DNA of 29,090 bases from a bacterium (GTDB taxonomy: Bacteria; UBP15; UBA6099), in contig JAKQPS010000145.1 of assembly GCA_029564595.1 (NCBI GenBank), forward strand, positions 1-29,090, in the 5' to 3' direction. The position numbers were made by a program, and so were the translations under genes. This document shows, in pieces, positions 13,018 through 26,650 of this stretch (positions are counted from its first letter, which is position 1; each line of letters begins with the position of its first letter). The notes under the pieces were generated by a model. The model did no database searches. It saw nothing but the letters and a program-made list of their open reading frames with translations, and was not told where the DNA came from.

Positions 13018-14136
13018 TCAGTCGAGCAGTTTTGATAAGAGGTTTGCGGCGCGGTATGGGCGGCGAAGCGGAGCGGGTATGGCTGGGTATCTGAACGCGA
13101 GGTATTTTGCGGGCGGGAAGACGGTTTGCAACAGAGGGGCGGCGCGCCGCTCGGCCAGAAGCATCGACACAGTCCCGCTTCTTTTTACCGCCGCGTCTCC
13201 CGCGATGGATTTAAATATCAGTTCTCTAGCGGCGCGGTTCAACGGGGAAGCGTCCGGCGGCGGGACGGCGGAGAGGGGTGGCGGAGGCGCTCCGAAAAGC
13301 TCGCTCGACAATGCGAACGCCATAGCCGCCGCGCGGGACAGCCCCGACTTGCAAAAAAGCGCGGCAAGCTTGTTCCAGTCCGGTTTGAGCGCGGCGCACA
13401 GCGGGGCGAGGTCAAGAATCCATTGCAACCTCGAAAAGGAGTGGACGGCTGCCATGTGGTGTATGTGATAGAGGATGACCGCTTCCGGCGGCAGCGAGAG
13501 CGCGCCCGATTCCGCGCTCGCCATCGCCCACAGCGCGTTCCCATCAAGGTTGTAAGCTGCCGCCGCAAAAAGGGATTGTGAGGGGTTCCACTGTGCCTCA
13601 ATGTCAACGCTGACGCCCGCGCGGACGGATGTGAACTTCATCTCTCCTGAATACTCGATGATAAAAATTTCCGGTAGATTGCTTTCAGCGCGTTTCCAAC
13701 CCAGCCCGCGCATCATGGCTTCAAGCTCGCGAATCTGCCCGCGCCGGACAAGGAAGTCGGCGTCCGACATCTCGCGTTCGTCAGGAGCGCCGAAGAGGCC
13801 AGCATAGAGCGCGCCCTTTAGAGGAATCATGTCCACGCCTGTGGCTGAGGCGGCCTCCATGACCGCGCGCGCGGAATCTAGGATGAGCATATTGGCGGCG
13901 GCGGCGGCGCGGGGGATGTTTTCCAGTTCCGCGCGCATGGCCGCGGGCGCTGTTTCGAGAAGGCCAAGGCGGGCAAGGTTCTTCGCCATCGGGGCCGCCA
14001 CCCTGTTAAGCCGCGCAAGCGCAAGCATGCGTCCCCATCCGCCCGCGTCCAGCCCGCGCGCGGACCGCTCCGCTCCGGCCCCGCACAGCCCCGCAAGCGT
14101 TCTCGTCTCTTTTTCGTGGACGTCTCTCTCAAACAT
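13018..14136 (-). CDS. PF14907-type nucleotidyltransferase family protein
   Basis: The 372-aa protein matches the uncharacterised nucleotidyltransferase family NTP_transf_5. It has LKG at 106-108, the metal-binding SDADFLVRR (124-132, with Asp125 and Asp127), a third acidic residue in VSVDIEAQWNP (Asp178), and the later HHMAAVHSFSRLQWILDLAPL helix typical of the family (usually H...R.W..D). It is likely cytosolic and transfers a nucleotide to an unknown acceptor. Family members occur beside lasso-peptide B2 proteins and in surface-polysaccharide loci. Its ATG shares the A of the preceding gene's stop (TGATG), so it is translationally coupled to the large barrel gene. It has no convincing Shine-Dalgarno of its own. 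Confidence 0.8.
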   Translation of the reverse strand: MFERDVHEKETRTLAGLCGAGAERSARGLDAGGWGRMLALARLNRVAAPMAKNLARLGLLETAPAAMRAELENIPRAAAAANMLILDSARAVMEAASATGVDMIPLKGALYAGLFGAPDEREMSDADFLVRRGQIRELEAMMRGLGWKRAESNLPEIFIIEYSGEMKFTSVRAGVSVDIEAQWNPSQSLFAAAAYNLDGNALWAMASAESGALSLPPEAVILYHIHHMAAVHSFSRLQWILDLAPLCAALKPDWNKLAALFCKSGLSRAAAMAFALSSELFGAPPPPLSAVPPPDASPLNRAARELIFKSIAGDAAVKRSGTVSMLLAERRAAPLLQTVFPPAKYLAFRYPAIPAPLRRPYRAANLLSKLLD

Positions 14137-17100
14137 CAGAAGTCAGCCTGCAGTTTCGTTTCCATCAGATAGCCGGAGTAGTCGTTGGACTCCGGGTCTC
14201 TCGAACTCGAAAAAGACGTCTTGTTGAAAGTAGTCTTCCAACTGAGGATTTTCGACATCTTTATTGAGGATTCAAACTGGAGGGAACTTTGCGAAGTAGA
14301 ATCGGCGGAGTCGGTGTCGAGCGTGTAATATGACAGGTTGAATTTTTTTGTTTCGCTCGGAACGCGCTCGACCATGAATGTGTTCGTGGTGTTTTGAGAG
14401 GAGGATGTGGCTCCCGACATGTCTGTGCGGCCGAACCTGTAAACGAAGACCGTCTTTGAAGAGCGTTTGTATTTAAGATCGAAGCTGAAGATGTCGGCTC
14501 CGCTGTCGTCGGCGCTTCCTGACGCGGAGGTCGCTGTGGTGTCCGACCATTCCCTTGTAAGGACTGCCTCGAACGGTTTGTCCTGTGGGCGGTATTCGAG
14601 TTTTGCGATTTTAGAAATGGAGTCGGACGACGAGCCTGACGAGTCGGTCTGGAACATCCTGACCGTCGGCGAAAACATCAGCGCGGATGTGAGAAGGTAC
14701 TGCGACGCCAGCGAAGTGGACGAGTAGCTGGAGCCTCCTCCCGTATTGTATGCGGGGAAAGACTGTTTCGTCATATTGAGGGATACCGATTGCAAGCGGC
14801 CTCTGCTGAGCGCCACGATGCTGACTCCCGTGCTGTCTTTCCCGTTGTTTCCGGCGGTGGCTCGCGTGTCGCTCACCCTCTGGCTGTTTATGTCGGCGGT
14901 CACGGTTATCAGTTCCGCCGGATAATACGTCAGGATGGCGCTCCTGCTGTTCGTCGTGGTGGAGTAGGGGACGCCGACTCCGAAAGAATCGGTTCCGCTG
15001 GACTTGAACACTGCCTTGAGGTCGAACGTGTTGTCCTTCCTATATTGCGCGGCGAACGCGCCGGAGGTGGTGGAACGGTTCGGCGCCGAGCCTGCGCGGT
15101 CGTCGAAATCCTCTTTGCTCAGCGAGTAATCCAGTTTAAGTCCGGGCCGCCATAGTCCGGCCGTTCCAACAGTGAATGTGTGCGCCGCTCTCTCCGTGTC
15201 CGTCTCCGGAGCCGGGGCGTTGTCTCGCGTTGTGTCCCTCGCGTATTCGTAACCGACTGAGTACAGGCCCGGAGACCAGCGAGTGGACACGCTGAGTTGC
15301 CGGTTGTCGTCGCTGTGGGTTCCGTAAATATCTTTCGCCACTTTGAAGCGCGAAGTGGTCACATTCAACGCCACGTTGGGGGCGGGGCTGCCGGACACGG
15401 AGAAATCCGCCCGGCTGGTCTCAAGGGTGTTGTTGCCTCCCAGCGGCGAGAAGAAAACATCCGTGCTCTCGGATTTCATCTGAAGCGTGTATCCGAGCAT
15501 CCGGGTTTCAGCCGATACCCTTGACGCATTGGCCGACACAATCCCTTCCTCGATGTCCGGCAGGTAGCGATACGACGCGTACAGAACGGTTTCCGGGGCG
15601 AACGCGATATTGTTTCTGAATGTTATCGCGCCCGACGCGTAGTCCATCTCGTAGTCTCTGCCGGCGAACAGCGGCTGGTCGTTTTCGCTCCATGTCACCG
15701 TCTCGGAAAGCTCGACGATGTTTGTGTTTCTGAGTTTGAAGAAGCAGTCGCCGGAAGGCTGGCCGGACACGGTCGGGCAGACCGCCTCGACCGGCGCGCG
15801 AACCAGCTTTTCATTCACCACGCTCACCGGGTTGTTCGACACGTCCGACTCGCTGCGCCCGTACTCGAACTTGAAATTCACAGGCCCCGCCGCAGCCGTT
15901 CCGAAAACCTGATACACCGTATGGTCGTAGTCAGACTCGTCCGCGCCTCCGGTGGCCGGAACCGCGAAGTACGAAACTCTCAGCCACTCGTCAAACCCCG
16001 ACGGGTTGTACGCCGCATCCGTTATCCGTATGTGGTTGTCGATGTGGTCGATTATATAAGAGCTTTCCGGAATGCTCTCCGGAGGCAGGCACTCGGCGTT
16101 TGAACACAACTCGACCCCGTTGAACGCAAGTTCGGAGCCGGGATATATCCTTCTCGGCAAGCCCTGTGTCAGAGGATAGATGTCGTCTCCGTCGTACACA
16201 AGCTTTTCGTTGAGGACGGGTTTTATCTGGTCGCGGACGTAATAAAGGTACTCGACCGAAAAGATGTCGTCCTGTTCGTAAGAGCCGAGGATTTTTATAA
16301 CGCCCTCCATATATCCGGCGGAGTCTAGAGAGTAGTCAGCGGACTTTGTGAGCGGCGCGCCGTTCTTGTAAATCTTCAGCGAGGTGTCCAGAACGAAACA
16401 AAATCTGTCGCCGGGGTGATACTGCCCGGCCCCGCAGTTCAACAATATGAAAGAGCCTTCCGGCGTCGAAGACACGCTTGCCCCGGTCAGCATGAGCGTG
16501 TCAGCCGCTAGAACCTGCTGTCTCGAACGCTGCGCCTCCTGCGACACCCTCGCGAACCCTATCGAGCCGGATTCCGAAAGATTCCGTTTCACTGAGAACG
16601 CTGTTATCGCCCCTGCGTTGAGAGAAAGAACCAGCCGCTCCTCGAAATTCACCTGAACCGTGTCCGAGCGCTTTATCGTCATGCAGTCGGTGGAGTCGGA
16701 CGGGTTGCAGAACGTTATCTGCCCCACGTAGTATTCAATGTAATATTTGTCCGCCGCCAGAACCTGTCCGTTGAGTGTTACCGACTCGCTGTTTTCAAGT
16801 ATCTGGAACGAGTTCAGGGAGAATGGGCCGTGCGTGTTGTCTCCATTGAAAGAGACTGATTTAGTCGAGCTTTTTGACTGCGACACAACGAAGTCCGCCT
16901 CGTATTTCTTCGAGTTGTACTGCGCGGCGACTCCGTTGATTTCCTTGTTGAGAGTGGCGAGAGAGCCGCTTCGAAAGTCGGGCGAGAAAAGGCCGAATGA
17001 CGCCTTGTGGCCTCCCGTTCCGAGGTCGAACCTCATTTTTCTTTCTATGTTCGGGCTTTCGCTCAGGTTGCCGGTCAGCGAAAGTTCTTTCCCGTAAGTG

Positions 17101-17633
17101 GCCGTTATATTGAGGTCGGACGCCTGTTCCATGCTGGCTCCCCGGTTGATAAGCCCCTTAGTGGACAGGAACTGGCGCTCGTTGCCGGAAGCTCCGTATG
17201 CTCTGTATAGCGCGTAACGGTATCCTTTAAGCGCGATGTCCAACTCCTTTTTCAGGCCGTCCGGCATCGGGGAGTCTTTGTCGAAGAACCTGTTGTCGGA
17301 GTCTTGAGGGCCGACCGTCGCTGCGGTCGGAGAGGCCGACGCCTCGAACGCTTTTTCTACGCCTGACAACAGCCTTGCCCGGGTGTAGAACGGCTTGACC
17401 TGCTCGGCTTCGAGAGTGGCGACCGCCACTCCGTCCCTTGCCGCCTCGAAGATGTCTCCCGGCGCGATTCCGGCTTCGGACCCCCGGTAGAACACTGCGG
17501 TTCCTTCCTCGAAGTCGAATGCCACGCGCGCCACGAAAGCCGGAGCGCCGAGCGCGGGCGCGTCCGCGAGCAACAGCGCGACCGCCGCCGCAAGCGCCGC
17601 TAGAAGCGCCGTTTTTCCTAGCTTATGCTTCAT
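14136..17633 (-). CDS. Large SprA-like outer-membrane barrel protein
   Basis: The 1165-aa product has a signal peptide (about 1-30, ending ALGA). A FlgT-C-like beta module follows (34-90: FYRGSEAGIAPGDIFEAARDG). Long beta-rich stretches come next. Motifs resembling the repeated SprA/gliding-motility pattern (NG-x-L-x-x-x-DY-x-x-DY-x-x-G-x-I-x-F) occur at about 287-308 (LNGQVLAADKYYIEYYVGQI), 423-448 and 650-672 (NDQPLFAGRDYEMDYASGAI), with a weaker one at 504-537. The last 450 residues are alternating amphipathic strands ending in Phe, as in outer-membrane barrels. SprA is the giant type IX secretion translocon, over 2000 aa in Bacteroidota; this is half that length, so equivalence is inference. 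The promoter is its own; the nucleotidyltransferase follows by TGATG overlap. No clear ribosome-binding site. Confidence 0.7.
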   Translation of the reverse strand: MKHKLGKTALLAALAAAVALLLADAPALGAPAFVARVAFDFEEGTAVFYRGSEAGIAPGDIFEAARDGVAVATLEAEQVKPFYTRARLLSGVEKAFEASASPTAATVGPQDSDNRFFDKDSPMPDGLKKELDIALKGYRYALYRAYGASGNERQFLSTKGLINRGASMEQASDLNITATYGKELSLTGNLSESPNIERKMRFDLGTGGHKASFGLFSPDFRSGSLATLNKEINGVAAQYNSKKYEADFVVSQSKSSTKSVSFNGDNTHGPFSLNSFQILENSESVTLNGQVLAADKYYIEYYVGQITFCNPSDSTDCMTIKRSDTVQVNFEERLVLSLNAGAITAFSVKRNLSESGSIGFARVSQEAQRSRQQVLAADTLMLTGASVSSTPEGSFILLNCGAGQYHPGDRFCFVLDTSLKIYKNGAPLTKSADYSLDSAGYMEGVIKILGSYEQDDIFSVEYLYYVRDQIKPVLNEKLVYDGDDIYPLTQGLPRRIYPGSELAFNGVELCSNAECLPPESIPESSYIIDHIDNHIRITDAAYNPSGFDEWLRVSYFAVPATGGADESDYDHTVYQVFGTAAAGPVNFKFEYGRSESDVSNNPVSVVNEKLVRAPVEAVCPTVSGQPSGDCFFKLRNTNIVELSETVTWSENDQPLFAGRDYEMDYASGAITFRNNIAFAPETVLYASYRYLPDIEEGIVSANASRVSAETRMLGYTLQMKSESTDVFFSPLGGNNTLETSRADFSVSGSPAPNVALNVTTSRFKVAKDIYGTHSDDNRQLSVSTRWSPGLYSVGYEYARDTTRDNAPAPETDTERAAHTFTVGTAGLWRPGLKLDYSLSKEDFDDRAGSAPNRSTTSGAFAAQYRKDNTFDLKAVFKSSGTDSFGVGVPYSTTTNSRSAILTYYPAELITVTADINSQRVSDTRATAGNNGKDSTGVSIVALSRGRLQSVSLNMTKQSFPAYNTGGGSSYSSTSLASQYLLTSALMFSPTVRMFQTDSSGSSSDSISKIAKLEYRPQDKPFEAVLTREWSDTTATSASGSADDSGADIFSFDLKYKRSSKTVFVYRFGRTDMSGATSSSQNTTNTFMVERVPSETKKFNLSYYTLDTDSADSTSQSSLQFESSIKMSKILSWKTTFNKTSFSSSRDPESNDYSGYLMETKLQADF

Positions 17634-17660
17634 CTTGTTCGCGGTCCAATATCCGCGCGC

Positions 17661-17669
17661 ATTATAACA
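17661..17669 (-). promoter_or_regulatory. Extended -10 promoter of the SprA-like gene
   Basis: On the minus strand TGTTATAAT gives a perfect TATAAT with the TGn extension. No good -35 is seen, as is usual for extended -10 promoters. The leader would be about 20 nt, and no clear Shine-Dalgarno precedes the ATG. Confidence 0.55.
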
Positions 17670-17927
17670 TGCCGCACAACGACATATCCCGTCCGGTCAC
17701 ACATAAAAGTCCCGGACGCTATAAACACGTTTATCTCGCCTGCTAGCGGGCCTGAACGCCACCCCGCTTATCAATAACTAATCGCAATCTCGTCTATTTC
17801 TCTAATTCTATTCATACAAATAATATCTACAATAATCAAGATTCCATATCCACCCGGAGAATTTTATATCCTCCCGGCTTTTGTCACGAATCCGTCATCA
17901 GGAAGCAAAAATAGAATTATGGACAAT

Positions 17928-17955
17928 AAAAAACGCCCCTCACGGGGCGTTTTTT
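17928..17955 (-). terminator. Intrinsic terminator after the PorV-like gene
   Basis: ACGCCCC and GGGGCGT form a 7-bp G+C-rich stem around TCAC, flanked by A and T runs on both sides, so it can work in both directions. It lies 28 bp beyond the stop of the PorV-like gene and ends the minus-strand operon there. Confidence 0.88.
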
Positions 17956-17982
17956 GAGCAATGGTTGTATATCCGGCGGTTT

Positions 17983-18882
17983 TTAGAACTTGAGATTGAG
18001 GGAGAACCTGTGCGCGTCTCCGAATTCGCCGGAGGGGATGAACGCGTAGTCGAATCCGAAATCCTCATACTTGAGTCCGACGCCGAATGTGAAGCCGTCA
18101 TCGATGTCGTAACCAGAGTTGTACCCGGTGCGCAGGGCTATCATGTCGTTGATGGTGTACTGGAGTCCAAGGTGATATTCGGGGTCTTCGCCGTTGATCA
18201 TGAAGTGGTCGAAGGCTGCGACGAGCGGGTATTGGTCGAATTCGTAGGCTGCGCCGACCACGAGCGTCATCGGCAGTTCGTCCTCGTTTTCGTCCAGTTT
18301 AATACTGTCGCCGAGGTTTCGCAGCACGGCGGCGAAGGTCCAGCCTTTCGGGGCCGGCTTGTACTTCAGCCCGGCGTCGATGGCGAATCCCGAGTCAGAG
18401 AAGTCGGAAATTTTGACTTTAATGTACTTCAAGCCGACGCCCCAAGAGATGGACTCGTCGTGCTGAGCGGCGTAGGCGGCGGTCAGCGCATAGTCGACAG
18501 GCCTGAACGAGCCGAGGTAGTTGTCCAGAGCGTCGTATTCAGCCTGTTCGCCGTAGTCGAGATAAACGATGCTGCCGCCGATGGCGCGTTTTCCCCAGTT
18601 GGACACGTAGGCTGCATATTCCTGATTGATGTCTAGAAGATACTCGTTGTGCATGACGGAAACTTGGCGGCCATCTACGGCGACCATCGCGGCGGGGTTG
18701 ATTGTCACCGCGCTGGCGTCGTCAACTATGGCGGCCCCCGCGCCTCCCATTCCTTCCGCTTTCGCGCTTACTCCCACGTTAAGGAACACCGCTGCCGTGG
18801 TTCCCGCCGCTTTGCACGCCGCAGGCGCCGCCAGCAGCGCTGCCATAGCCAAAGCCATGCATTTGATGTGTGTCTTTTTCAT
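17983..18882 (-). CDS. PorV/PorQ-family outer-membrane protein
   Basis: The 299-aa product has a signal peptide (about 1-26) and then VGVSAKAEGMGGAGAAIVDDASAVTINPAAM (35-65; the family pattern is G-x-x-A-x-x-MG-x-A-x-x-A-x-x-D-D-x-x-A-x-x-x-NPA). Alternating beta strands follow, such as WGVGLKYIKV and YHLGLQYTIND, and the protein ends in FSLNLKF with a C-terminal Phe. This is the FadL-like barrel family to which PorV belongs. PorV shuttles cargo from the SprA translocon to the attachment complex in type IX secretion; PorQ-type and other members also exist. ATG 18882 has GGAGGAAAAGAG upstream. It follows the CTD-bearing secreted protein by 77 bp and ends at a strong terminator. Confidence 0.85.
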   Translation of the reverse strand: MKKTHIKCMALAMAALLAAPAACKAAGTTAAVFLNVGVSAKAEGMGGAGAAIVDDASAVTINPAAMVAVDGRQVSVMHNEYLLDINQEYAAYVSNWGKRAIGGSIVYLDYGEQAEYDALDNYLGSFRPVDYALTAAYAAQHDESISWGVGLKYIKVKISDFSDSGFAIDAGLKYKPAPKGWTFAAVLRNLGDSIKLDENEDELPMTLVVGAAYEFDQYPLVAAFDHFMINGEDPEYHLGLQYTINDMIALRTGYNSGYDIDDGFTFGVGLKYEDFGFDYAFIPSGEFGDAHRFSLNLKF

Positions 18883-18933
18883 CTCTTTTCCTCCGCGCGC
18901 TTTCGTCTTCAGATGCGCGATATGATTTTCCCG

Positions 18934-18951
18934 GCGGGCGTCGCCGCCCGC
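18934..18951 (-). promoter_or_regulatory. Intercistronic GNRA-loop hairpin before the PorV-like gene
   Basis: On the minus strand GCGGGCG and CGCCCGC enclose GCGA, a stable GNRA tetraloop, without a U tract. It sits between the stop of the 1329-aa secreted protein and the PorV-like ribosome-binding site, and may protect or uncouple the downstream message. Confidence 0.5.
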
Positions 18952-18959
18952 GGATGCGC

Positions 18960-21900
18960 TTAATTGACCACCGACAGCTTGCCGGTGTAAGTCTTTTTGA
19001 ACACTCCGTCAAACACCGATATGATGTACGGATAGACGCCTGAAGCGATGTTGCGACCGGCGTTGTTTCTGCCGTCCCATTCGAGCAGTGTCAGTCCGAC
19101 GCCGGGGGGCGACGGTATGTTGCCCGCGTGGACGGCCTGAGCGCTGCGGACGAGTCTGCCGCGTATGTCGTATATTTGCGCGTCCACCACTATTGTTCCG
19201 CCCGCGTTGTAAGTGGACTCCGCGGCGTCGGCGGAGAATGTCACATTGCCGTGCGTGGAGCTGCGGTACGGGTTCGGATAGGTGTGCAGGTTGACCATAT
19301 TAAGTTCGACGAACGCCTGCGGGGCGACCCTGCCTCTGGTCAGCCCCCATCCGCTGTACAGCGAGAAGTGATTCGTGACCGCAGTGATGGTCTTGCCGAC
19401 CGGGTCTATTGAGCCGTCGAGCTTCATCCAGTTGCCGGGGTTTGAACAGACTGTGCTTCCGGCGTCGCACCAGTAATAAACGTATATTGAGTTGATCGGG
19501 ATTGTGCCGCCGCCACCGGTGCAGTCAGCGTCCTGCACGGTGTCGAGGAATCCGTCGTCGTCCGCGTCGCAGAACCTGAACACAAGCCGGATGTCCTTGG
19601 TGAACACCACTCCATCCGGGAAGAACTCTCTGGCTGTGCCGATCTGAACGAGCAGGTCTTTACCGTCCGGGCTGGACGGCGCGGCGGGCGTCGCCACCTG
19701 CAGCTTGACTTCGTCGGATATCAAAGCTCCGGGCGGGATTACCGCAGTGACCGCGCCGTTCTGGAACAGCAGACCGCCGGTGTTGTTCGTCACCGCGCTC
19801 TGGTCGCCCAGTTCGAGGAACGCCAGTTTCCCGTCTCTTGTCCCCGTTTTTTGCGTGACGTACGAGAAGATGTTTCCGTTTGTCGATTTCGGGCATCCCG
19901 CGCCGAGACACTGCACAAGGCCGAACTCGTTGTTCTCGCTCTGGCCCAGCAACTGCGGGGAATATATGTCGTCATCTATGTACTCGATATAGTTGTCGAA
20001 GTTGACCCCGGAGAAGAATGTGGACGCGACGCTCTGACCTTGGAATCCTGCCAATGTGAGATTGTTGAAGTTGAAGCTGTTGTCCGGGTCGACCATGTAT
20101 GTGATCATCGTGCCGTCGTCCGTGAATGACGGGAACAAGGCAGAGCCGTTGACGCAGCTTGTCGGCGTGCATTCCTGAACCATGTCTATTACTCCGGGGT
20201 AACTCGCGTAGTTGTTAATGTGGGTGATGGTCAGAGGCAGCAGGGGTGAAACCGCTACCGGGTCAATCATGTAAATGCCGGTCTTGGAAGGCGCGGGAGC
20301 GTCGAACCACACGACGAACGCCAGCTTCGAGCAGTCTTTGGACCATGTGGGATGCATCGCGTAGTTCCAGCGTCCGAGGTTGGTCAGCTTTGTCACCGTC
20401 GATCCCGTTTCGGTGTACAAACCCTTTGCGTTTTTGCCTCCGCTGATCAAGTGCAGTTGGATGCCGCTGAGCGGGAGAATTCCGTCGCTGTATGAGACGG
20501 CCAAAGTGTCCGCGTTCTGCGCGCAGCCTGTTCTGCTCCATGCGGCGTCCCAGTTGAACGACACGGCTGTCGGGTTGTCGGCGAGAAGCTGGTTGTTGTC
20601 TTTCAGCCATGTTACGGTTCGGGTGCTGTCGGAGCCGTCCGCCTTGACCGCGAACAGTCTCGGCCGGGTGGGATATCCGGGGAGCGTGGTCGTCGTGCTG
20701 TATCCGGAGAACAGGACGTACTGGTCGTCCGGCGTGAACGACGCGCGCACGTTCGGCTGAACCCGCATGTCGTTGTTGGTCAGCTTAAGCGCGGGCAGCC
20801 ACGCGCTGCCGTTCCATCCTAGCTTGTAAAGGTTCCAGTAATCCGCCGCGCCCTCGCGCATCGGGACCACTATGCTTGTTCCGGCGTGGCTCCATACAGG
20901 GTGCATCACCGTGTCGCCCGCCGTCGGGGACAGCACGTCCGAATCTATTTCGCCCACGAGCACTTGCACGGAGGTGTCGTCCCTCACGAGGATATAGGCA
21001 ACTTGGTCTCTTCCGCCGACTCCGGTCAGGCCGGAGCCTGTCGCGGTCACTTCCACCGCCTCGTCCTGAGCCGCAGCGGCTTTTATCTTTATCCAGCCTT
21101 CTCCGCCGGAGAGAGTCCCGGTAACGCTGGTCACTCCGGGGCCGGGCGTCGCTCCGCCCAGACTTGTGGCGGATATGTACGCGCCGCTTGTCGTTATGTT
21201 GTCTAGATCGACCGTCACGGACATCGACGCTCCCGGCTCGTATGTATGCTGCAAGTTGGATTCGCTGTAGAGGATTATCCTTACGCGTTCTTCCGTGTTG
21301 GAGCCTGTGAGGTTGAGGATGCCGTCGGGTTCGTCCGTAGCGTCCGAATCAAGCTCGGTCACTCTCAGGTAGGCTGGCGTCGCCACAATGTATGTGTACA
21401 CGAACAGCGGGGAACCGCTTCCAGTCGACACGTTGCCTGCGTTGTCGTCCGTTTTGATTATCAGGTAATAAGTTGTTCCGGCGGTCAGAGCCGTCGGATT
21501 TGTGAAAGATGTGCCCAACTGGAAATCCGTCGGGTCCGCCAACGAGTTGGTCCCGAAATAAACGAAGTAGCCGTGGACTCCGGAATTGTCGCCGGCGGGA
21601 TTGTCTGACGGAGCCGTCCATTCGAAATACGGTCCTGTCGGGCCGTTGTATGTGTAAGAATTGCCGCTAGTTAGCGACTGGGTTTTCGCCGAACTGTCCC
21701 ATGCTGAAACGGACGCCACGTTGTTAGGAGCCGTCCAGTCTATGCTGAACGTTCTGGACACCGCAGTGGAAACGTTCTGCACATTGTCCGTGGCTCTGAG
21801 GAAAACCTCGCATTCGTCAGTGCCCTGAACATTGCAGTTGGCTGCGGCTCCCACTGTCACAGTCGGGCCCGCCGCGCATGTGTATGAAGTCCATCCGAGA

Positions 21901-22949
21901 GTCTGAACGCTGTTGCTCACCACCCTGTATTCGCAACCGCTAACGCCCGATAGCGCGTCGCTCACTGTGGCGCTGACCACGAAGTCGTCGTTTTGCCAAG
22001 AGGACGCTGCCGGCGCGGTTATCGTCACGGTCGGCGGCAGGGTGTCGCATGTCCTGTTCACTGCCGTCGCGGTCGTCGCGTTCCCTTTCGCGTCCGACGC
22101 TCTCATATTTATAACGAGCGCCGCCCCGTTTACACATGCCACGTTTGTCGCCTCGCACGTTCCGCCGGAATATGATCCCGCGCTCCATGCGCCGCCCCCG
22201 TTTATCGTGTATTCGCACGTTCCCATCCCCGCGCATCCCACGTCGGCGATGGAGCTCATCGTTATCGTATGGTTGCTGCTCACGTACTGGTCGTTATAGC
22301 TGTAGTTCGATGTGGCTACCGTCCCGACGGTCGGCCCGGCCGCGTCGAAACTGTATCCGCCAAGCGTCAGGTCTCCTCCGATGATTCCTCCGTTATAGCT
22401 CCGCAGAACTAGATACCAAGTTCCGCTGGAAGTGGCGCTCACCGACATGCTCGTTCCGAGCTTGCCGCAGGTTCCTCCCGGACAATACCCGTTGATGTCG
22501 CTCCATGATGTTCCCGCCTGAATTGCGCCGTGCGTGTATGAATCAGTCGTTTGCCAGAGATATCGATAATATTGGGTGGCGCCCCGGTGAAAGGCGCACG
22601 CGGGAGTGGCGCATCCCGCCGAGTTCTCGAATGTGAACGCTCCGTCGGAAGTTCCGTAGCATGCGCCGGTATTGCAGGCGACCCCGTTGATCTCGCATTC
22701 CGCCGCCGGAGGCAGGGGCAGGGCGATCTGGTATCCCTGCGAGGCCTCGTTCGCGCCGCTCACGCTCAAGCCCGCCGCAGTCTGCGTCACGGTGGCCGTC
22801 AGCGTGTTCGTTCCCCCGGTCATCTCCCCGCCGCCGCCTGCGACAACGTCCCATTGCACCACATTCGCCGGCGCGGGGATGCTTGCCAACACAAACAACA
22901 AAGCCGCCGTCAAGGCGCTCGATACTGTCTGTTTTGTTTTTAGTCTCAT
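18960..22949 (-). CDS. Secreted multidomain protein with FlgD/T9SS type-A-like C-terminal domain
   Basis: The 1329-aa product has a signal peptide (1-28). A Cys-rich N-terminal region follows, with a Gly-rich jelly-roll-like stretch (165-205). Ig-like segments lie at about 300-405 (PPTVTITAP, then SDALSGVSGCEY) and a fibronectin-III-like segment at about 405-520 (FEWTAPSDN, GTTYYLIIKTDDNAGN). Residues about 680-1000 have TolB/WD40-like blades (HPVWSHAGTSIVV, HPTWSKDCSKLAFV, FPSFTDDGTMITYM). A ZU5-like part with VTAVIPPGALISDEVKL follows, containing an Asp-rich calcium-like loop DADDDGFLD (1128-1136). The last 108 residues (1222-1329: YPNPYR, IYDIRGRLVR, WDGRNNAGRNIASGVYPY) form an FlgD-Ig/type-A sorting-like domain. 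Such domains route cargo through type IX secretion. PorV follows at once. Confidence 0.78.
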   Translation of the reverse strand: MRLKTKQTVSSALTAALLFVLASIPAPANVVQWDVVAGGGGEMTGGTNTLTATVTQTAAGLSVSGANEASQGYQIALPLPPAAECEINGVACNTGACYGTSDGAFTFENSAGCATPACAFHRGATQYYRYLWQTTDSYTHGAIQAGTSWSDINGYCPGGTCGKLGTSMSVSATSSGTWYLVLRSYNGGIIGGDLTLGGYSFDAAGPTVGTVATSNYSYNDQYVSSNHTITMSSIADVGCAGMGTCEYTINGGGAWSAGSYSGGTCEATNVACVNGAALVINMRASDAKGNATTATAVNRTCDTLPPTVTITAPAASSWQNDDFVVSATVSDALSGVSGCEYRVVSNSVQTLGWTSYTCAAGPTVTVGAAANCNVQGTDECEVFLRATDNVQNVSTAVSRTFSIDWTAPNNVASVSAWDSSAKTQSLTSGNSYTYNGPTGPYFEWTAPSDNPAGDNSGVHGYFVYFGTNSLADPTDFQLGTSFTNPTALTAGTTYYLIIKTDDNAGNVSTGSGSPLFVYTYIVATPAYLRVTELDSDATDEPDGILNLTGSNTEERVRIILYSESNLQHTYEPGASMSVTVDLDNITTSGAYISATSLGGATPGPGVTSVTGTLSGGEGWIKIKAAAAQDEAVEVTATGSGLTGVGGRDQVAYILVRDDTSVQVLVGEIDSDVLSPTAGDTVMHPVWSHAGTSIVVPMREGAADYWNLYKLGWNGSAWLPALKLTNNDMRVQPNVRASFTPDDQYVLFSGYSTTTTLPGYPTRPRLFAVKADGSDSTRTVTWLKDNNQLLADNPTAVSFNWDAAWSRTGCAQNADTLAVSYSDGILPLSGIQLHLISGGKNAKGLYTETGSTVTKLTNLGRWNYAMHPTWSKDCSKLAFVVWFDAPAPSKTGIYMIDPVAVSPLLPLTITHINNYASYPGVIDMVQECTPTSCVNGSALFPSFTDDGTMITYMVDPDNSFNFNNLTLAGFQGQSVASTFFSGVNFDNYIEYIDDDIYSPQLLGQSENNEFGLVQCLGAGCPKSTNGNIFSYVTQKTGTRDGKLAFLELGDQSAVTNNTGGLLFQNGAVTAVIPPGALISDEVKLQVATPAAPSSPDGKDLLVQIGTAREFFPDGVVFTKDIRLVFRFCDADDDGFLDTVQDADCTGGGGTIPINSIYVYYWCDAGSTVCSNPGNWMKLDGSIDPVGKTITAVTNHFSLYSGWGLTRGRVAPQAFVELNMVNLHTYPNPYRSSTHGNVTFSADAAESTYNAGGTIVVDAQIYDIRGRLVRSAQAVHAGNIPSPPGVGLTLLEWDGRNNAGRNIASGVYPYIISVFDGVFKKTYTGKLSVVN

Positions 22950-23016: not shown

Positions 23017-23601
23017 TTAGAATGAACTAAGGTCAGGCGGATTCGCCCTTTTCTGTTTCTCGGCTTCCGTCAGCTCGATTGTGACAGGAATCCGCGCGAA
23101 TTCTCCCGGCCCCACACGAAAATTCTCCTTGAATGGCGCATAGCGTTTCTCTTTTATTTCAAGCGTATAGTCCGGGTCTTTTTCGCCTGAGGGAGCGACT
23201 ATGAATACGCAGTCTCCCTCAGCGTTGGAAGCGCACTCGGCTGGCTTTGCCAGCTTTCCGCCCGAAAGCGTCATCTTGACGCGCCTGTTTTCTTTCGGAG
23301 CGCGCTGAAGCGTCGCGCTAATCATAATCGTGGCTCGCGACGCGACCTTTCTCAATCTCTCTATCTCCGCCAGCGCCGCGTCGATTTTCTCCTCGACCCC
23401 GGCCGCCCTGTCAAATTCCATTTTTTTCGTCAAGTCCACAGCAAGTTCAGGCGATGTCAACACAATATGCGACGTCTCAATTTGCTTCTCTTTGACATCC
23501 TTTTCAGCGGCGGACGCATGCGCGCCGAATGCCGCGGCCCCTGCCGCGACTATCAAAACGGCAATCACCGCCGGATGTATTCTTTTCATTCTCGTTTTCA
23601 T
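23017..23601 (-). CDS. Small exported protein with coiled coil and Ig/peptidase-regulatory-like domain
   Basis: The 194-aa product has a signal peptide (about 1-31, ending AHASA). A short helical stretch rich in Lys, Glu and Ala follows (about 55-90, EEKIDAALAEIERLRKVASR, probably a coiled coil). A beta domain lies at about 92-175 (VKMTLSGGKLAKPAECASN, DGDCVFIVAPSG-like turn, YTLEIKEKRYAPFKENF), resembling carboxypeptidase-regulatory or Ig-type folds. I do not recognise the family. ATG 23601 has GAGGAA upstream; the gene starts seven bases after the stop of the 1013-aa fibre protein, so the two are one transcription unit. A structural or chaperone partner of that protein is only a guess. Confidence 0.65.
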   Translation of the reverse strand: MKTRMKRIHPAVIAVLIVAAGAAAFGAHASAAEKDVKEKQIETSHIVLTSPELAVDLTKKMEFDRAAGVEEKIDAALAEIERLRKVASRATIMISATLQRAPKENRRVKMTLSGGKLAKPAECASNAEGDCVFIVAPSGEKDPDYTLEIKEKRYAPFKENFRVGPGEFARIPVTIELTEAEKQKRANPPDLSSF

Positions 23602-23608
23602 AATTTCC

Positions 23609-26600
23609 TCACGGCCTTATCGCCCGGCAGGCTGTTCCCCAGTCTTCATCCGGGTACGACGTCGCCCACACCGTCATCGCGTAGATATACGTTCCTCCGG
23701 GGCACATCGCGCTGTGCCAGCAGTCGTCGTCCCCGTTGTCTCCGGCTCCGCCGGACCGCAGCCATGTCGATGACGTGTAGCTGCCGCTCGATATCCTTGT
23801 GCAGTACAGCCTCATATTGTTGTCGAGCCTTCCGGACGCGTATATGGAAAACCCTCTCGCCACGTAGCCGTCTGGACACACCGCCGAATGCCAGCAGTCG
23901 TCGCATGTTCCTGAATAACCTGTCCAAACATTGTCCCCTGTGTTCAGGAGATCGCCTATGTAACCGCAAGTCAGGGTTATGTTTCCGTCCGCGTAGTTCG
24001 TGTGATAAACCGAAAAGTTCATTATCGCGTATCCCGCGTCGCAGAGAACCTCGTGCGTTTGGCTGTCCGCGCCTGTGCCCGGGCCGACCTTGTATTGGAT
24101 TATGTTCGGAACCAACGCGCCGTTTGCCGGGCTTCCCTTCAGATAGAGATTTCGCCATCTCAGACTGTTCGCGCCGAGGTCTCTTGCGTTGTCCGTGTAC
24201 GGCTCGACGTTTCCGTCCACCGTAATTTTTGGATTGAAATAGAAGCTGGCCCGGTCCGATGTGAAGTGCGCCCATCCCGTGTTCTGCGCTCCCATGTCCA
24301 CGTAGCCGGAGTCAGTCTGCATCCTTAGCGCGTTTCCCGCGCCCTCCGTCAGCCGCGTGTTGCCGTCCACCAGATAGACATTGCCTCCCTGAATCGTCGC
24401 GTTGCTTCTCAGAGTCAGATCTCCTATGTTGGACAGCGTCATCGTGTAGTACGGCCCGGACGTGTTGGCCCAGTAGAAATTCGTGTTTGAATGCATTCCG
24501 AACAGCAACCCGCCTGTCGGATAGTAAAGCGCCGCGTGGCTCGTGTTGGGAAACTTCAGCGCGATGTTCCACCCGCTCCATCCGCTTTCCATCGTGTAAA
24601 CGTTGGCTCCCGATTGCAGGTTCAGGTAAGCTCCCGTAAGGTCGAGCGCGTCGTTTCCGGTGAGTATGAACCTCGCGTCGTAATCAGCAGCCCCGTCGTT
24701 GCTGAAATCCACGAAAGGCGTCCCGCCCGCGGTGTCTCTCAACTCAAGTCCGGGGTTGCCCGCGTGCGATATGCTCAGATTGCCCGTCATCGTGTCCCCG
24801 GCCTTCAGCACGTATCTTCCGTCGAACCTGTCCTCGCTTCCGTCTATCCTTGTCCAGCTTCCTATCGTCCCGTTTTCCACCGTCCTCAACCACACGCCCG
24901 CGGTTGATGGACTGTATCTTGGATACGCCAGCTCTAGGCTGTATCCTCCCGCGCCTCTCATTGGGTAGTTGCTTCCGAGGCTGAAGCTCCCTCTATACCA
25001 CTGGCTCGATGTCGCGTTCGGGCAGTTAGTCGTTCCTTGCACATAGTTCCATCCCCAGTACGACGGATCCGTGTTGCAGTTCGTGTATGTTCCGTGCGCC
25101 TGCCAGTTTCCGAAGTTGCCGAGTTGCGGCGAATCGTATCCGTCCAGCAGGTCGGCGTTCAGGTTCGTCACTTTCGTGGTTGATGTCACTGCCAGCGGAG
25201 CCGTTCCCGTTGCGACCGTCGAAACAAGCTGCGCTGCCGTCTTGATGTTCGACTTTGCGTATATCCCGTTTGTCACTTTGTTCGAATCGCAGTCCGCCCA
25301 CGAGTCCGACGCGCACGCTTGCTTGGCGTACAACTCCTGCGCTGAACTCCCGTCCGCTATTCTGACTATTCCGGTTGATTGTATCTGGCCCGCTCCGGCA
25401 TAGCTCGACGCGTTCAGGTATATACTCGTTCCGGCTCCCATCGTAAGGCTGCCCGACATCGTGTCTCCGGCTTTCAACACGTACTGGCCGTCCGTGTACG
25501 ATGTGTCCAGCGATATTGTTCTATCCGCCGTCAGGTTGCCCCCTCCGCTCAGCCCCGTTCCCGCAGTTATGCTCCTGTCCGCCCTCACCGCGCTCGTCGT
25601 CGCTGTTCCCGCTTGGCTCAACGTCACCGTCTGGATATACGCCGTCTTGTACCTAAGCGCAGCCGTTCCGATGTCGTACGCGTGGTCCGCCGTCGGGTTC
25701 AACTGCCGTCCCTGCAACGTTCCCGTCATCGTGTCTCCTGCCTTCAACACATAGAACGAGTCCGTGTAATCTTTGTCCAGCGACGCCGTTCTTGCCGTCG
25801 AGCCGTCGTAACTCGTGAGAATTATCCCGGTTCCGGCGGTAAGCGCGGCCAGCGTCGTCGAATATGTGACCCGCTTGTTGACAGAATCAAAAGCGACAGT
25901 CGTTCTCCCTCCCGCAGCGAACTGCACAGTATCGTTGTTGCTCGTCGCCGAGAACTGTGTTGTCGGCGCGGAGTTCGCCACATTCTTGAATATATATTGC
26001 GCCGAACCTCCGTCCGTCGCGTTTAGAGTCACCGTGCCGCCCGCGCCCAACGTTATGCTGCCTCCGCCGGAAAGCCCTGTGCCGGCGGTTATCGTTATCG
26101 ATGTGTTTCCTTGCACGGCAGTCCCCGCCGTTGACCCGTACGACACTGTCCATTCGGACGCCGACAGCCCGTTGTACGCAGTTCCTGACAGCCCCGTTCC
26201 CGCCGTCAACGTCGCGTGCGAATGCGTCGAAGCGGCGAAATCAGCCGCGTGATATCCGTCCAGCATGTCCGCGTTTATTGCCATCGCGGTCGCCGTCATC
26301 CTCTGCCGGGGCGTATATATCACCGTGTCAACCTGTGCTTGCATCCAGTATTGCGCGCTCTCAAAATCCAGCCCAATTGCGCTCGTCCCTCCTAGAACCA
26401 CGCTAAAAAGCCCGTCTTTAGTGGTTACCGACACCGGCCCTTCCGACCACAGGCTCGTTCCACCGCTCTCCGCGCTCCAGATGCTGAACGTCATGTCGTG
26501 CGGCCCGTCGGCTACCGGAACTCCGTTGGCGTCCGTCAATCTTCCCTGATAGTTAAGCCTCTTTTCAAATGCGGCTTCTGCCGAATTTGAAATAATCAGG

Positions 26601-26650
26601 AGAGTTAAAATTGCTCCCGTCGCAAGCGCTGTTATTGTCCGCATTGCCAT
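23609..26650 (-). CDS. Exported phage-tail-fibre-like chimera with C-terminal Cys repeats
   Basis: The 1013-aa product has a signal peptide (about 1-26). Next is a domain opening RLNYQGRLTDANGVPVADG (31-49), common on secreted proteins of candidate phyla. Tail-fibre elements follow: ADMLDGYHAADF (128-139) and ADLLDGYDSPQL (499-510); VLKAGDTM three times (301-308, 391-398, 614-621); TAGTGLSGGG repeats; a pyocin-knob-like segment (550-603); and the DIG/DLG-x-x-x-L-R-W/Y placement motif (326-334, 824-832). The C terminus has three related modules (about 866-898, 915-952, 974-1012) with C-x-x-GY...F.VY....D.N....C and DDCWHS-A-x-CP, somewhat dermatopontin-like. ATG 26650 has GAGGT upstream. A surface adhesin or fibre is inferred. 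Confidence 0.8.
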   Translation of the reverse strand: MAMRTITALATGAILTLLIISNSAEAAFEKRLNYQGRLTDANGVPVADGPHDMTFSIWSAESGGTSLWSEGPVSVTTKDGLFSVVLGGTSAIGLDFESAQYWMQAQVDTVIYTPRQRMTATAMAINADMLDGYHAADFAASTHSHATLTAGTGLSGTAYNGLSASEWTVSYGSTAGTAVQGNTSITITAGTGLSGGGSITLGAGGTVTLNATDGGSAQYIFKNVANSAPTTQFSATSNNDTVQFAAGGRTTVAFDSVNKRVTYSTTLAALTAGTGIILTSYDGSTARTASLDKDYTDSFYVLKAGDTMTGTLQGRQLNPTADHAYDIGTAALRYKTAYIQTVTLSQAGTATTSAVRADRSITAGTGLSGGGNLTADRTISLDTSYTDGQYVLKAGDTMSGSLTMGAGTSIYLNASSYAGAGQIQSTGIVRIADGSSAQELYAKQACASDSWADCDSNKVTNGIYAKSNIKTAAQLVSTVATGTAPLAVTSTTKVTNLNADLLDGYDSPQLGNFGNWQAHGTYTNCNTDPSYWGWNYVQGTTNCPNATSSQWYRGSFSLGSNYPMRGAGGYSLELAYPRYSPSTAGVWLRTVENGTIGSWTRIDGSEDRFDGRYVLKAGDTMTGNLSISHAGNPGLELRDTAGGTPFVDFSNDGAADYDARFILTGNDALDLTGAYLNLQSGANVYTMESGWSGWNIALKFPNTSHAALYYPTGGLLFGMHSNTNFYWANTSGPYYTMTLSNIGDLTLRSNATIQGGNVYLVDGNTRLTEGAGNALRMQTDSGYVDMGAQNTGWAHFTSDRASFYFNPKITVDGNVEPYTDNARDLGANSLRWRNLYLKGSPANGALVPNIIQYKVGPGTGADSQTHEVLCDAGYAIMNFSVYHTNYADGNITLTCGYIGDLLNTGDNVWTGYSGTCDDCWHSAVCPDGYVARGFSIYASGRLDNNMRLYCTRISSGSYTSSTWLRSGGAGDNGDDDCWHSAMCPGGTYIYAMTVWATSYPDEDWGTACRAIRP

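Follow-up and report, generated by a model that had tools for sequence, protein, structure and literature searches.

Does a bacterial lineage outside the Bacteroidota export surface proteins along a type IX-like route, and does it do so through a translocon half the usual size? The question is raised by three genes on the minus strand of a 29,090-nucleotide window (the whole stretch of DNA that was analyzed), which an earlier note had read as an SprA-like barrel, a PorV-family barrel and a cargo protein with a C-terminal sorting domain. The three open reading frames lie as described there, and in the direction of transcription they run from the cargo gene (18960-22949; 1,329 aa) through the PorV-like gene (17983-18882; 299 aa) to the barrel gene (14136-17633; 1,165 aa).

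Host lineage and gene layout

The draft genome that holds the window, as contig C45, is 4.4 Mb in size and 97% complete. Because relatives in the species collection, including UBP15_UBA6099 alongside ADurb.Bin236 and one further MAG, are 95-99% identical over the barrel, we assign the host genome, on sequence identity, to candidate phylum UBP15. This phylum, named Candidatus Lagoxiota ("Ca. Lagoxiota") in PMC11382960, falls outside the Bacteroidota, as the earlier note had supposed. The phylum was sampled through seven searchable genomes from four genera, all of them drafts of 60-630 contigs, three of which are 92-97% complete.

The PorV and barrel genes are neighbors, as claimed, but an intrinsic terminator (17925-17982, minus strand; -20.8 kcal/mol, z -3.39) parts them. 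This terminator is conserved in locus L011, and a comparable hairpin occurs in genome G001. Because a conserved terminator lies between them, the two genes probably belong to separate transcription units. The roughly 350-bp stretch from PorV to barrel (window 17600-18000) shares ~95% identity with UBA6099, a level of conservation similar to that of the barrel protein, and this suggests regulatory constraint beyond the terminator itself. Downstream, the ATG of a nucleotidyltransferase gene (PF14907; 13018-14136, minus strand) overlaps the barrel stop codon (TGATG), and the two are probably co-transcribed. On the other side, a gene for a 194-aa secreted protein (23017-23601, minus strand) precedes the cargo gene at a distance of 67 bp, and 7 bp further upstream is a gene for a 1,013-aa protein (23609-26650, minus strand); both are probable members of the cargo-PorV transcription unit, with the 1,013-aa gene at its head. 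The product of this last gene weakly resembles the mosaic adhesive trimer fibers of Bdellovibrio (Bdello_MAT_N, 3.5e-6, below cut-off).

The cargo protein and its PorV-family carrier

The cargo has a signal peptide, recognized by eye, and repeats of Ig-like and PD40-like type. Its last 120 residues (18963-19322, minus strand) form a C-terminal domain of the FlgD-Ig/CHU_C type. Taken singly, this tail scored below cut-off in Pfam and NCBIfam, including the type A sorting domain model TIGR04183 (13.6 bits against a cut-off of 23), and AlphaFold2 modeled it at a pLDDT of 37. A profile was built from five aligned tails of the host genome, which share the motifs YPNP, GR.VR, W.G...G, GVY and TGK..V. 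Its best match in the PDB was the PorU tail (6za2, residues 1045-1154; 2.6e-9), followed by FlgD (1.9e-5) and the PorZ tail (5m11; 5.8e-5). By profile similarity, the cargo tail is thus homologous to the type IX tails of PorU and PorZ, and to FlgD Ig, in agreement with the sorting-like domain that the earlier note had described. The same profile recovered 35 tails at E < 1e-10 across the seven UBP15 genomes. Six of these are in the host genome, so the possibility raised beforehand, that the cargo might be alone in bearing such a domain, is refuted.

The 299-aa protein is a member of the PorV/PorQ family of outer-membrane carriers, as first read. It matched the NCBIfam PorV family model NF033709 at 3.5e-56 over model positions 1-326 (191.2 bits, cut-off 90), exceeded the cut-off of Pfam PF19572 and, in PDB searches, matched the PorV chain of the solved SprA-PorV complex (6h3i; 1.2e-9). 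Neither of the narrower PorV/PorQ equivalog models was reached (NF033710, 89.0 bits with a cut-off of 250; NF033711, 152.4 bits with a cut-off of 220). Two other PorV-family proteins (L016:6799-8589 and L017:7273-8721) bear C-terminal extensions of ~200 aa.

PorV-family proteins occur in all seven UBP15 genomes. Pairing was counted on the 24 PorV-family matches at E < 1e-10, and 22 of these are preceded on the same strand, at a distance of 125-212 bp, by a tail match. For one of the two outside this arrangement (G006:C386), the contig breaks off 130 bp from the start of the match; the other (G001:C40) is a PorV that adjoins a barrel. Because nearly every PorV-family gene (22/24) directly follows a tail gene, we consider it very likely that the tail-bearing cargo and the PorV-type protein form a dedicated cargo-carrier pair, and this is the firmest result of the analysis. 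Tail-PorV linkage, with one small gene between, was also seen in a genome from outside UBP15 that has no SprA over cut-off (G125). The arrangement is reminiscent of the type B tails of F. johnsoniae, whose cargo genes are paired with a gene for a cognate PorP/SprF-type shuttle (PMC12618676, PMC9143113), in that each cargo gene has its own outer-membrane carrier gene. In UBP15, however, the carrier is of the PorV family and the tail is type A-like, whereas the F. johnsoniae pairs share one SprA.

The 1,165-aa barrel and its relationship to SprA

Behind its signal peptide, the 1,165-aa protein has a small domain at the N terminus (residues ~30-100). Strands begin at residue ~133, domains with an NG...DY...G.I.F motif are inserted, and a C-terminal barrel follows from about residue 700. 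As the earlier note had observed, the protein ends in phenylalanine, a feature common to 13 relatives. The repeated motif is likewise real, and one copy (16536-16919, minus strand) matches positions 567-687 of the SprA model TIGR04189 at 9.8e-6. Weak matches of phage tail-type families to the same motif in Pfam and NCBIfam indicate that it is not in itself specific to SprA. Over the whole protein, identity with SprA is ruled out (23.3 bits, with a best score in the genome of 25.9, against a TIGR04189 cut-off of 200). Full-length Pfam and NCBIfam scans returned no family above cut-off, and neither the single barrel nor two profiles recovered an SprA chain from the PDB.

Comparison of profiles with hhalign matched the barrel family to true SprA at 1.6e-13 over 190 columns. 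With the ~1,100-aa barrels from other phyla the alignment ran nearly end to end (739 columns; 1e-23), and an Omp85 control gave no match. The domain shared with SprA spans ~100-190 columns, has the form I.eGSE.V.LNG..L...Y.IDY..GqITF in both and, when the regions were compared separately, sits in the N-terminal part of the barrel. The C-terminal barrel (residues 700-1165) scored 3.9e-6 against the ~1,100-aa class and 0.0018 against SprA, where reversed-sequence controls on residues 590-1165 gave 0.034 and 0.048, respectively. The similarity to SprA therefore appears confined to the inserted domain, with that of the C-terminal barrel marginal. On these profiles, the 1,165-aa protein is an SprA-related member of a separate short family, so that of the SprA-like barrel first proposed the relationship stands and the identity does not. 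A scan for hydrophobic alternation suggested ~34-36 candidate strands in regularly spaced hairpins (a by-eye estimate); the SprA barrel has 36 strands (PMC10994853). AlphaFold2, supplied with two near-identical relatives only, returned a pLDDT of 25.

Short barrels without SprA in UBP15

Barrels of this short family (~1,000-1,250 aa, aligning over ~1,000 columns) are present in all seven UBP15 genomes at about five paralogs each; the five long barrels of the host genome are on contigs C45, C131, C157, C6 and C24. The core profile matched 64 of 193 genomes, in which the open reading frames fall into a class of ~1,700-2,400 aa and one of ~1,000-1,250 aa; two of the longer class were confirmed as SprA (624 and 651 bits). 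A TIGR04189 search found SprA over cut-off in none of the seven UBP15 genomes, while the same search found full-size SprA in 10 of 19 others. Because the search turned up no full-size SprA in UBP15, one of the short barrels is the best candidate for a channel. The open-access literature searched gave no account of type IX components in UBP15 or of short barrels related to SprA. The small domain at the N terminus of the barrel (residues ~30-100) is also part of a phylum-wide architecture, in which proteins of 400-500 aa (L200, L201, L202 and L203) combine it with a linker rich in Ala and Pro and a C terminus that resembles a barrel.

The earlier note had seen no PorU gene, and in the strict sense PorU is absent. 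The C25 peptidase of the host genome (contig C77, L160:7000-10263; Pfam C25, 1.6e-65), of the gingipain/PorU clan, scored ~130 bits against the PorU model (cut-off 420) and ends in TPR repeats with no sorting tail; by its domains, it does not have the build of a standard PorU-type sortase. Matches to the C25 domain were seen in G001, G002, G003 and G006 as well. The models for the motor components GldL and GldM were silent everywhere (TIGR03517) or gave only matches below cut-off (TIGR03513), even in SprA-positive genomes, and therefore say nothing on the presence of a motor in UBP15.

Set beside the SprA/Sov-PorV system of Bacteroidota, the UBP15 locus resembles it in the PorV-family carrier, in the type A-like tail of the cargo and in the large barrel with its SprA-shared domain. 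It is unlike that system in that the barrel is about half as long and falls below the SprA cut-off, in a genome without SprA; further, the C25 protease lacks PorU architecture, and each genome has several short barrels rather than one channel.

Related barrels in other phyla

Relatives outside UBP15 include the ~1,100-aa barrels matched above (L096, L098-L108 and L120). Most of 16 such loci have an NHL/propeller-like protein and/or an Omp85/POTRA protein adjoining the barrel, and a full or partial cluster of NHL-propeller or lipoprotein-like protein, barrel and Omp85/POTRA protein was seen at L096, L098, L099, L101, L102, L104, L106, L107 and L120. This cluster is possibly an undescribed outer-membrane system. 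The UBP15 barrels, in contrast, lack NHL-Omp85 neighbors and have more paralogs, and the genomes of the ~1,100-aa barrels, where tested, also carry full-size SprA. A class of other-phylum genomes with a short barrel but no SprA was considered and rejected, as SprA was found in all seven such genomes tested. G024 has PorV-family genes and no SprA match.

At 6 of the 16 loci the barrel is closely preceded by a tail-bearing gene (two by Pfam, four by eye from the C terminus), but the abundance of tail genes in such SprA-bearing genomes makes this adjacency, taken alone, weak evidence. In G010 and G158 a related barrel occurs with neither a PorV nor a TIGR04183 tail match, so the link between the barrel family and tails is not universal.

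Is the short barrel the export channel?

Our preferred reading, to which we give a probability of about one half, is that the locus encodes a surface cargo, its PorV carrier and a short barrel that acts as the channel in place of SprA. The cargo would be exported by Sec bearing its type IX-style C-terminal domain, and this tail most probably binds the loops of the PorV-type carrier. The carrier would dock where the short barrel opens laterally, and cargo and carrier would exit together, sideways. Because no standard PorU-type sortase is present, the cargo would then remain at the surface with its carrier as anchor. The channel role of the barrel, its lateral gate, the docking of the carrier and the energy source are inferred. 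In UBP15, short barrels would thus stand in for SprA. Extended to the phylum, the proposal is of an SprA-independent, type IX-like export with one PorV carrier per cargo and no standard PorU, alongside an NHL-barrel-Omp85 companion system beside SprA elsewhere; this broader picture we put forward tentatively, at somewhat short of even odds.

Gene linkage bears on this reading from both sides. The cargo-PorV-barrel order is maintained across one genus, and in four genomes of that genus a second barrel paralog comes immediately after a tail-bearing gene that has no PorV. Two of the five paralogs in the host genome thus adjoin tail genes, and three have neither a tail nor a PorV neighbor. The chance of at least two of five barrels lying near one of six tails is ~0.001 under random placement; as the window locus was pre-selected, the fairer figure is that for one further case by chance, which we estimate at a few percent. 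Beyond linkage, the estimated strand number, near that of SprA, and the lack of any SprA match over cut-off in UBP15 favor the channel role; the narrow extent of the SprA similarity, the barrels of G010 and G158 without PorV or tails, and the PorV-family genes of G024 without an SprA match count against it. The cargo-PorV pair could nonetheless be real and the 1,165-aa barrel an unrelated neighbor, with the pair using another barrel or the general barrel-assembly machinery and the barrel helping, for example, to assemble or export some other part of the cell surface. The terminator between PorV and barrel is consistent with this, as are the overlap of the barrel with the nucleotidyltransferase gene rather than with PorV, the three paralogs without such neighbors and genome G002, where the orthologous barrel and the cargo-PorV pair are on separate contigs; the other-phylum relatives, too, sit with an NHL propeller and Omp85 beside a separate SprA. 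Against it, PorV and barrel remain adjacent in another family where the cargo gene is missing (G001; L051), the second paralog adjoins another tail gene, and the seven genomes offer no other SprA candidate. We regard an unrelated neighbor as a plausible explanation that has a sizable minority of the probability.

Doubt could also be cast on the pair itself, if the tail were no more than an Ig domain of the generic FlgD type and the PorV-like protein were a porin of the FadL type, with no type IX-like export at all. The single tail does score below curated cut-offs and FlgD chains do match the tail profile, but the PorU tail is matched better (2.6e-9, against 1.9e-5 for FlgD), and the 299-aa protein, at 191 bits for the PorV family, scores just 12 bits for BamG and falls below the cut-off of the FadL-type Pfam family Toluene_X. 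Above all, the 22 strict tail-PorV pairings among 24 make this improbable. Finally, a complete type IX system with SprA might have been missed through draft assembly or divergence, given that all the UBP15 genomes are in many contigs and that the motor models are too narrow. That SprA should escape in seven genomes, three of them nearly complete, while the same model finds it in other phyla, seems very improbable.

Biological significance

UBP15 is not among the phyla reported with type IX secretion (PMC11285876). If the preferred reading is true, with the short barrel as channel, carrier-coupled export would be extended to a phylum not previously reported to have it. The barrel would be a smaller type IX translocon that shows which parts of SprA are dispensable, and the locus would be a simpler setting in which to study how cargo is drawn through the wall of a barrel by PorV-type carriers. 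Should the barrel prove not to be the channel, it still belongs to an SprA-related barrel family, apparently still without a name, that has a conserved gene cluster of its own.
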